From Gemmatimonadota bacterium (GTDB taxonomy: Bacteria > Gemmatimonadota > Gemmatimonadetes > Gemmatimonadales > Gemmatimonadaceae), in NCBI GenBank assembly GCA_026387935.1, contig JAPLKU010000021.1:124001-188000 (forward strand): a DNA stretch of 64,000 nucleotides, written 5' to 3'. The stretch's first letter is position 1. Every line of letters starts with the position of its first letter. This document shows positions 44,894 to 45,722 of this stretch, piece after piece. Position numbers and translations under genes: made by a program. Below the pieces are notes generated by a model. That model did no database searches. It was given only the letters and a program-made list of their open reading frames with translations, and was not told where the DNA came from.

Positions 44894-45046
44894 CTACTTC
44901 GTCTCCTTGTGGACCTGATGCTTGTTGCACCGCGGACAGTACTTCTTCCATTCCACGCGCTCCGGGTGGAGGCGCTTGTTCTTCATGGTGAAGTAGTTCC
45001 GGTTTTTGCACTCGCCACAGGCGAGGATGATCTTTTCGCGAGCCAT
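44894..45046 (-). CDS. rpmG: 50S ribosomal protein L33, zinc-binding form
   Basis: A 50-residue protein found by reading the gap between secE and tRNA-Thr. It starts [19 protein letters not shown] and ends [16 protein letters not shown]. Two Cys pairs (10/13 and 37/40) make a C-plus zinc ribbon. Its TAG stop directly precedes the secE GTG. The place rpmG-secE-nusG is common in many phyla; here rpmG stands where E. coli has tufB. Confidence 0.96.
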
Positions 45047-45062
45047 TTATCGAATCCCCAGG

Positions 45063-45090
45063 TCTTATTTCTTATTTCTGACTTCTGCTT
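45063..45090. repeat. Heptamer-periodic tract between tRNA-Thr and rpmG
   Basis: TCTTATT, TCTTATT, TCTGACT, TCTGCTT in exact 7-bp phase; the first two are identical. In the transcript sense the unit is AATAAGA and contains TAA. Confidence 0.55.
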
Positions 45091-45097
45091 CACTCAG

Positions 45098-45170
45098 AGC
45101 ACGCGACCAGGATTGAACTGGTGACCTCCCCCTTACCAAGGGGGTGCTCTACCAACTGAGCTACGCGTGC
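45098..45170 (-). tRNA. tRNA-Thr(GGT)
   Basis: A 73-base cloverleaf without encoded CCA: acceptor GCACGCG/CGCGTGC, D-arm TAGCTCAGTTGGTAGAGC, anticodon stem CCCCC/GGGGG with loop TTGGTAA (anticodon GGT), and T-loop TTCAATC. Last of four tRNA genes before rpmG, equivalent in position to E. coli thrT. Confidence 0.97.
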
Positions 45171-45216: not shown

Positions 45217-45224
45217 CAACCCAG

Positions 45225-45297
45225 AGCGGGAGACGGGGCTCGAACCCGCGACATCAAGCTTGGAAGGCTTGCGCTCTACCAGCTGAGCTACTCCCGC
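45225..45297 (-). tRNA. tRNA-Gly(TCC)
   Basis: A 73-base cloverleaf: acceptor GCGGGAG/CTCCCGC, anticodon stem CAAGC/GCTTG with loop CTTCCAA (anticodon TCC), T-loop TTCGAGC. Third gene of the cluster, position of E. coli glyT. Confidence 0.97.
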
Positions 45298-45395: not shown

Positions 45396-45404
45396 AACCG
45401 CAAT

Positions 45405-45486
45405 GGTGGGGGAAGGATTCGAACCTTCGAAGGCTTGCGCCGTCAGATTTACAGTCTGATCCCGTTGGCCACTTGGGTACCCCACC
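45405..45486 (-). tRNA. tRNA-Tyr(GTA)
   Basis: An 82-base class II tRNA with long variable arm. Acceptor GGTGGGG/CCCCACC with discriminator A, anticodon stem TCAGA/TCTGA with loop CTGTAAA (anticodon GTA), T-loop TTCGAAT. Second gene of the cluster, position of E. coli tyrU. Confidence 0.96.
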
Positions 45487-45572
45487 TGAGCTGCCAGCCG
45501 AGTCCTTCGATACGCCTCCCAAAAAACCCCGAATTACCGCCAACATCCAGAGACTAAAAACACTACAGGCAG

Positions 45573-45645
45573 AGCTGACGGCGAGAATCGAACTCGCAAC
45601 CGCCTGATTACAAATCAGGTGCTCTGCCAATTGAGCTACGTCAGC
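45573..45645 (-). tRNA. tRNA-Thr(TGT)
   Basis: A 73-base cloverleaf: acceptor GCTGACG/CGTCAGC, anticodon stem CCTGA/TCAGG with loop TTTGTAA (anticodon TGT), T-loop TTCGATT. First gene after the promoter, position of E. coli thrU. Confidence 0.97.
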
Positions 45646-45680
45646 CAGAACAACCCTTGTAGACATCGACGAGCGGTTTT

Positions 45681-45711
45681 TCGCGAGCCTTAAAACTTAT
45701 CGTGCTCGCGA
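45681..45711. promoter_or_regulatory. Inverted repeat straddling the tRNA-operon -10 region
   Basis: TCGCGAGC (45681-45688) and GCTCGCGA (45704-45711) are perfect inverted copies 15 bp apart. One arm lies in the promoter spacer and the other at the predicted transcription start, with the -10 box between them, so it looks like an operator. Confidence 0.55.
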
Positions 45712-45722
45712 AATCGCGTCAA
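45694..45722 (-). promoter_or_regulatory. sigma70-type promoter of the tRNA-rpmG-secE-nusG operon
   Basis: TTGACG (45717-45722, five of six) and TAAGTT (45694-45699) with a 17-bp spacer, about 45 bp upstream of tRNA-Thr(TGT). The bases after the -10 (TTAAGGCTCGCG) are GC-rich close to the start, as in stringently controlled stable-RNA promoters. Confidence 0.65.

Follow-up and report, generated by a model that had tools for sequence, protein, structure and literature searches.

The predicted promoter of a minus-strand operon for tRNAs, ribosomal protein L33, SecE and NusG in a Gemmatimonadota genome carries its -10 element in the loop of a perfect inverted repeat, and the question raised by this locus is whether the repeat as such, or an element overlapping it, is the functional unit. 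The window, i.e. the whole 64-kb stretch of DNA that was analysed, holds on this strand a -35 element TTGACG (45717–45722), of which TTGAC is kept in most orthologous promoters, a 17-nt spacer (45700–45716), which contains the upstream arm of the repeat and is conserved only in a few near relatives, and a -10 element TAAGTT (45694–45699). The promoter is a predicted one, of the sigma70 type as judged by TTGAC, a distance of about 17 nt and TANNNT upstream of a gene; a terminator and promoter scan of the area at a strict setting listed no sigma70 promoter. Four bases (TTAA) separate the -10 from a start-site box GGCTC (45685–45689), which is an instance of GKCTS (G-[GT]-C-T-[CG]) and is followed by GCGAAAA (45678–45684), an extension of the box conserved in the family at this promoter alone. 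The operon, all on the minus strand, begins with tRNA-Thr(tgt) (45572–45645) and continues with tRNA-Tyr(gta) (45404–45486), tRNA-Gly(tcc) (45224–45297), tRNA-Thr(ggt) (45097–45170), rpmG (L33; PF00471, 44894–45046), secE (PF00584, 44657–44893) and nusG (PF02357, 44107–44664), after which ORFs resembling rplK, rplA, rplJ, rplL and rpoB were identified by eye.

A preliminary description of this DNA had reported a perfect inverted repeat bracketing the -10, with one arm in the promoter spacer and the other from about the predicted start. Both the repeat and the placement of its arms were confirmed, and the arms even extend to 10 bp, at 45679–45688 (TTTCGCGAGC on the plus strand, overlapping the start-site box) and 45704–45713 (GCTCGCGAAA on the plus strand), with a 15-nt loop between them. 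The range originally given, 45681–45722, covers the repeat with 8-bp arms, whose core TCGCGAGC-N15-GCTCGCGA (45681–45711) was matched exactly, and then continues beyond the repeat as far as the -35. Eight perfect 10-bp arm pairs with loops of 3–30 nt occur in the 64-kb window against 4.4 (sd 2.2) by chance, as estimated from 20 first-order Markov resamplings of the window; a repeat of this length is thus expected somewhere in 64 kb and is unremarkable by itself, and it is the location over the promoter that singles this one out. Similarly, the 8+15+8 pattern with up to three mismatches showed no excess in the window (two matches versus 3.29 by chance).

On balance, we favour the view that function resides in GKCTS and not in the palindrome. 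GKCTS would be a promoter element in the start region of Gemmatimonadota growth genes, read by RNA polymerase or a factor bound to it and possibly serving growth control. Orthologous upstream regions were collected by DNA searches with the tRNA-Thr/Tyr stretch and with stretches from relatives, yielding 55 regions (one per genome) from 61 genomes, the six left out (G008, G017, G024, G025, G038 and G040) having only weak tRNA matches. A promoter-like site was present in 50 of the 55, and in 47 of these 50 GKCT stands exactly 4 nt after the -10, another offset (within 0–13) being seen once; the exceptions to offset 4 are L046, L051 and L103. Five regions (L034, L052, L053, L108 and L123) have no promoter-like site under the rule used, among which L123 nevertheless reads TATCCT-CCAA-GTCTG, with a weak -35. 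For L051 and L052 (G002 and G014) the region taken precedes a different tRNA-Thr, while the boxed promoter lies further downstream, before tRNA-Tyr. The box is retained where tRNA-Tyr replaces tRNA-Thr as the first gene of the operon (G013, G015, G014 and G002). At this promoter its family form is prolonged to G-K-CTCGCG-M-AAA.

The box extends well beyond this operon. The pattern TTGAC-N18-TANNNT-N4-GKCTS was found 220 times, in all 61 genomes, against nine matches for the backward pattern and six (in five of the 61 genomes) for the permuted box CTKGS. The other orders of the class (120 genomes, 94 of them with a match) yielded 203 matches versus eight, and another class gave seven versus one in six genomes. 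Of the 298 phylum genomes scanned, 259 contain the pattern. The survey covered Gemmatimonadota genomes and 22 kb of E. coli. Box plus -10 without a -35 showed no enrichment in the window (one match versus 1.67 by chance). Additionally, 16S rRNA genes were located by an Rfam search that is independent of the box, and were found in seven of 37 genomes; the same search found none in the window's own assembly (G000), the lack of this gene being usual for metagenome bins. A promoter-like site precedes six of the seven 16S loci (the script found none at L158), and GGCT[CG] occupies offset 4 in all six. The boxed 16S promoters have -35/-10 spacers of 17 or 18 nt at a constant offset of 4, and the position of the box therefore follows the -10, not the -35.

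Downstream genes were considered for 150 listed places of the 220, the downstream DNA of 117 being typed; family names derive from Pfam searches with one or two members of each family and from tblastn for the rest. Genes for rRNA, tRNA, ribosomal proteins, EF-P, RnpA or YceD follow the box at 92 of the 117 (rplM 14, rplU 14, tRNAs 13, rpsL 12, 16S 11, rpsA 8, efp 6, rpsT 5, rpsF 5, rnpA 3 and yceD 1), and a further 17 precede secD (7), prs (3), degT (2), yicC (2), groES (2) and pnp (1). The eight left untyped by the script were assigned by Pfam or by reading to IF-1, NusA, SecG (L247, and L194 by likeness), two Big_2 proteins, a Flp pilin and a solute-binding protein, L201 being named by likeness to L326. 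The other 33 listed places, assigned by coordinates, comprise 22 tRNA-Thr promoters, four sites of the window's own genome, four before tRNA-Tyr and two before 16S, with G012:C295:84 outside the typed set. Boxed sites also occur at genes without an evident growth role, namely those for the DegT aminotransferase (two), the Big_2 proteins, the solute-binding protein and the Flp pilin.

Since the search pattern demands TTGAC, a spacer of 17 and TANNNT, it is biased to strong promoters, which are themselves rich in growth genes, and sites of the window's own genome picked without regard to the box therefore provide a fairer test. Seven of 27 such promoter-like sites are boxed, where about 0.25 would be expected from composition, and all seven stand before growth genes (prs, efp, tRNA-Arg, tRNA-Thr, tRNA-Val, rpsA and rplM), as compared with six of the 20 unboxed sites that precede translation genes (Fisher 0.002, or 0.024 with prs left out; the numbers are small and the protein names were assigned by eye). 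The link of the box to translation genes is thus supported. Not every translation promoter carries the box: in the same genome an exact GKCT is missing from the promoters of rpsF, infC and rimP (named by eye) and from three tRNA promoters. By eye, larger lists of promoter-like sites were mostly without the box. The preliminary description had suggested that the repeat might serve a growth regulator of translation genes and recur elsewhere in the genome, which holds for the downstream arm alone, once recast as GKCTS at offset 4, and fails for the palindrome.

These data bear on whether the box might be merely the preferred initiator of strong promoters in this phylum, helping transcription to start and escape efficiently but regulating nothing. 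We regard this as rather unlikely: the box does occur at promoters expected to be the strongest, translation genes are served by boxed and unboxed promoters alike, and an A-rich stretch lies 5–8 nt beyond the box, but growth genes are over-represented relative to the other promoter-like sites of the one genome so compared. Less probable again is that the box constitutes a half-site for a classical double-strand DNA-binding regulator, whether repressor or activator, of a translation regulon, kept at constant spacing from the -10. The gene set does resemble a regulon and a steric cause could fix the spacing, but the word has just five letters, and a double-strand site should tolerate other offsets, against which the almost constant position at the tRNA operon speaks. 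Furthermore, the profile of 161 distinct sites contains neither symmetry nor a second half-site. These sites were selected by the pattern, so that its fixed letters are given; between the -10 and the box the profile is A/T-rich (first base A 0.32, T 0.40; fourth base A 0.49), and the A-rich stretch after the box belongs to it.

The suggestion that the palindrome is the operator of a dedicated repressor covering the -10, in this species and its nearest relatives, we consider very improbable. In its favour, the 10-bp arms are perfect and suitably placed, none of 500 spacer shuffles gave 10 bp for the window, and part of the repeat is kept in the near relatives L025, L026 and L030. Against it, the repeat is absent from the other orthologous promoters, an outcome that the preliminary description itself had named as refuting its reading: complementarity between spacer and start reaches 10 bp in only one of the 47 boxed promoters, that of the window, followed by 7 bp in L026 and L099 (the latter with a different sequence), 6 bp in L030 and at most 5 bp elsewhere. 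The partial arms read TTTCGCG/CGCGAAA in L026 and TTTCGC in L030, while L025 has TTTCGCAAGC versus GCTCGCGAAG, the arm differing at two of ten places with a complement of at most 5 bp, and two of six near-group genomes (L028 and L033) lack such an arm. The proposed search for further copies near other promoters returned TCGCGAGC-N10-20-GCTCGCGA as a single copy in the 2.8-Mb genome, and the 10-bp arm alone has 22 genome copies against 16 for its backward control. The palindrome was consequently rejected as a genome-wide operator, being single-copy with half-sites that are not conserved in orthologous promoters. It resembles palindromic repressor operators lying over a -10 in its geometry, in this one genome, and differs from them in its lack of conservation and its single copy. 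The conservation of the downstream arm has a separate cause, as this arm contains the GKCTS box; because relatives do not retain the upstream arm in the counterpart promoters, the palindrome probably came about accidentally in this lineage, its spacer arm being perhaps a product of drift aided by a T-rich spacer segment (TTTC) that is common in near relatives. That the box might act in the RNA, marking the 5' ends of growth transcripts as the eukaryotic 5' TOP does, seems hardly credible, since, although it would fall at or near the RNA 5' end, it also occurs at rRNA and tRNA promoters, whose 5' ends get cut off, and its spacing is fixed relative to the -10.

Returning to GKCTS as a promoter element, we infer both a reader and a physiological role from four observations: the constant spacing to the -10, the enrichment, the kind of genes that follow and the distribution over the phylum. 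The promoters on which the box sits are of the sigma70 type and serve growth genes, among them those for rRNA, tRNA and ribosomal proteins; the box would lie at around -2 to +3 if transcription started 7 nt after the -10. That it follows the -10 rather than the -35, in a region melted in the open bubble, suggests as its reader the RNA polymerase holoenzyme or a polymerase-associated factor, either of which would recognise the box as a single strand in the open complex. Such reading could set the life of the open complex and promoter escape, and growth genes might thereby respond jointly to the nutritional state, via ppGpp or the initiating nucleotide. The core recognition element of RNA polymerase, at about -4 to +2, is a general contact with single-base preferences; the box is like it in lying near the predicted start, fixed to the -10 at an offset that agrees with this position (the start itself being only predicted), and unlike it in being a five-letter word on a subset of promoters.

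The closest counterpart in place and gene set is the stringent discriminator of E. coli, where a G+C-rich stretch after the -10 of rRNA promoters bears on sensitivity to ppGpp and DksA (PMC7822876). Like the discriminator as described there, the box is found just downstream of the -10 at rRNA, tRNA and ribosomal-protein promoters; in E. coli, however, the signal is a G+C-rich stretch from -8 to -1 (PMC7822876), whereas in Gemmatimonadota a specific word stands at a constant offset of 4 nt, the bases preceding it are A/T-rich, and the segment from the -10 to the start is not G+C-rich. GKCT is absent from the corresponding place in E. coli rrnB P1 and P2, and no GKCTS promoter was found in the 22 kb of E. 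coli examined. To judge from the promoter sequences, the box is a different kind of signal in a like place and gene set. It is conceivable, and we put it forward tentatively, that Gemmatimonadota coordinate the synthesis of rRNA, tRNA and ribosomal proteins through this box, a code unlike the G+C-rich discriminator and visible across the phylum. The matching of ribosome synthesis to growth has been worked out in few bacterial phyla, and a short word at one fixed place would make it possible to read from sequence which genes form the growth regulon in a phylum that has received little study, in addition to offering a sharp mutational test of direct reading by RNA polymerase. Literature searches returned nothing on a GKCTS start-site element.

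Several smaller observations accompany these results. The longer word TANNNTNNNNGNCTCGCGNAAA was rejected as a regulon motif, as 14 of its 16 places in the 61 genomes are the tRNA-Thr promoter (backward control: two), and with two mismatches it is no commoner in the window's own genome than its control (43 versus 65). In a named genome collection the long promoter word occurs in 19 stretches, of which 16 bear the name of Gemmatimonad bacteria, one of 'bacterium', one of Bacteroidales and one of Proteobacteria. A segment resembling TAAGT-NNTTG recurs in the rplM promoter spacers of different genera, for example in L187, L212, L272 and L296, and may be a further element specific to that promoter. 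In some genomes of the genus, namely in L044 and L045 (G013 and G015) and at G002:C11:23423 and G014:C3:26424, tRNA-Tyr comes first behind the boxed operon promoter, G002 and G014 having a different tRNA-Thr(tgt) upstream of it. The start of rpmG, ATGGCTCGCGAAAAG (45034–45046), repeats the operon-start word GGCTCGCGAAAA, probably by chance. Finally, the gene order is the same as in the thrU-tyrU-glyT-thrT-tufB and secE-nusG operons of E. coli except for tuf and rpmG: unlike in E. coli, tuf is absent between tRNA-Thr(ggt) and rpmG in the window (44894–45170), whereas it is present there in the relative G058 (L193).
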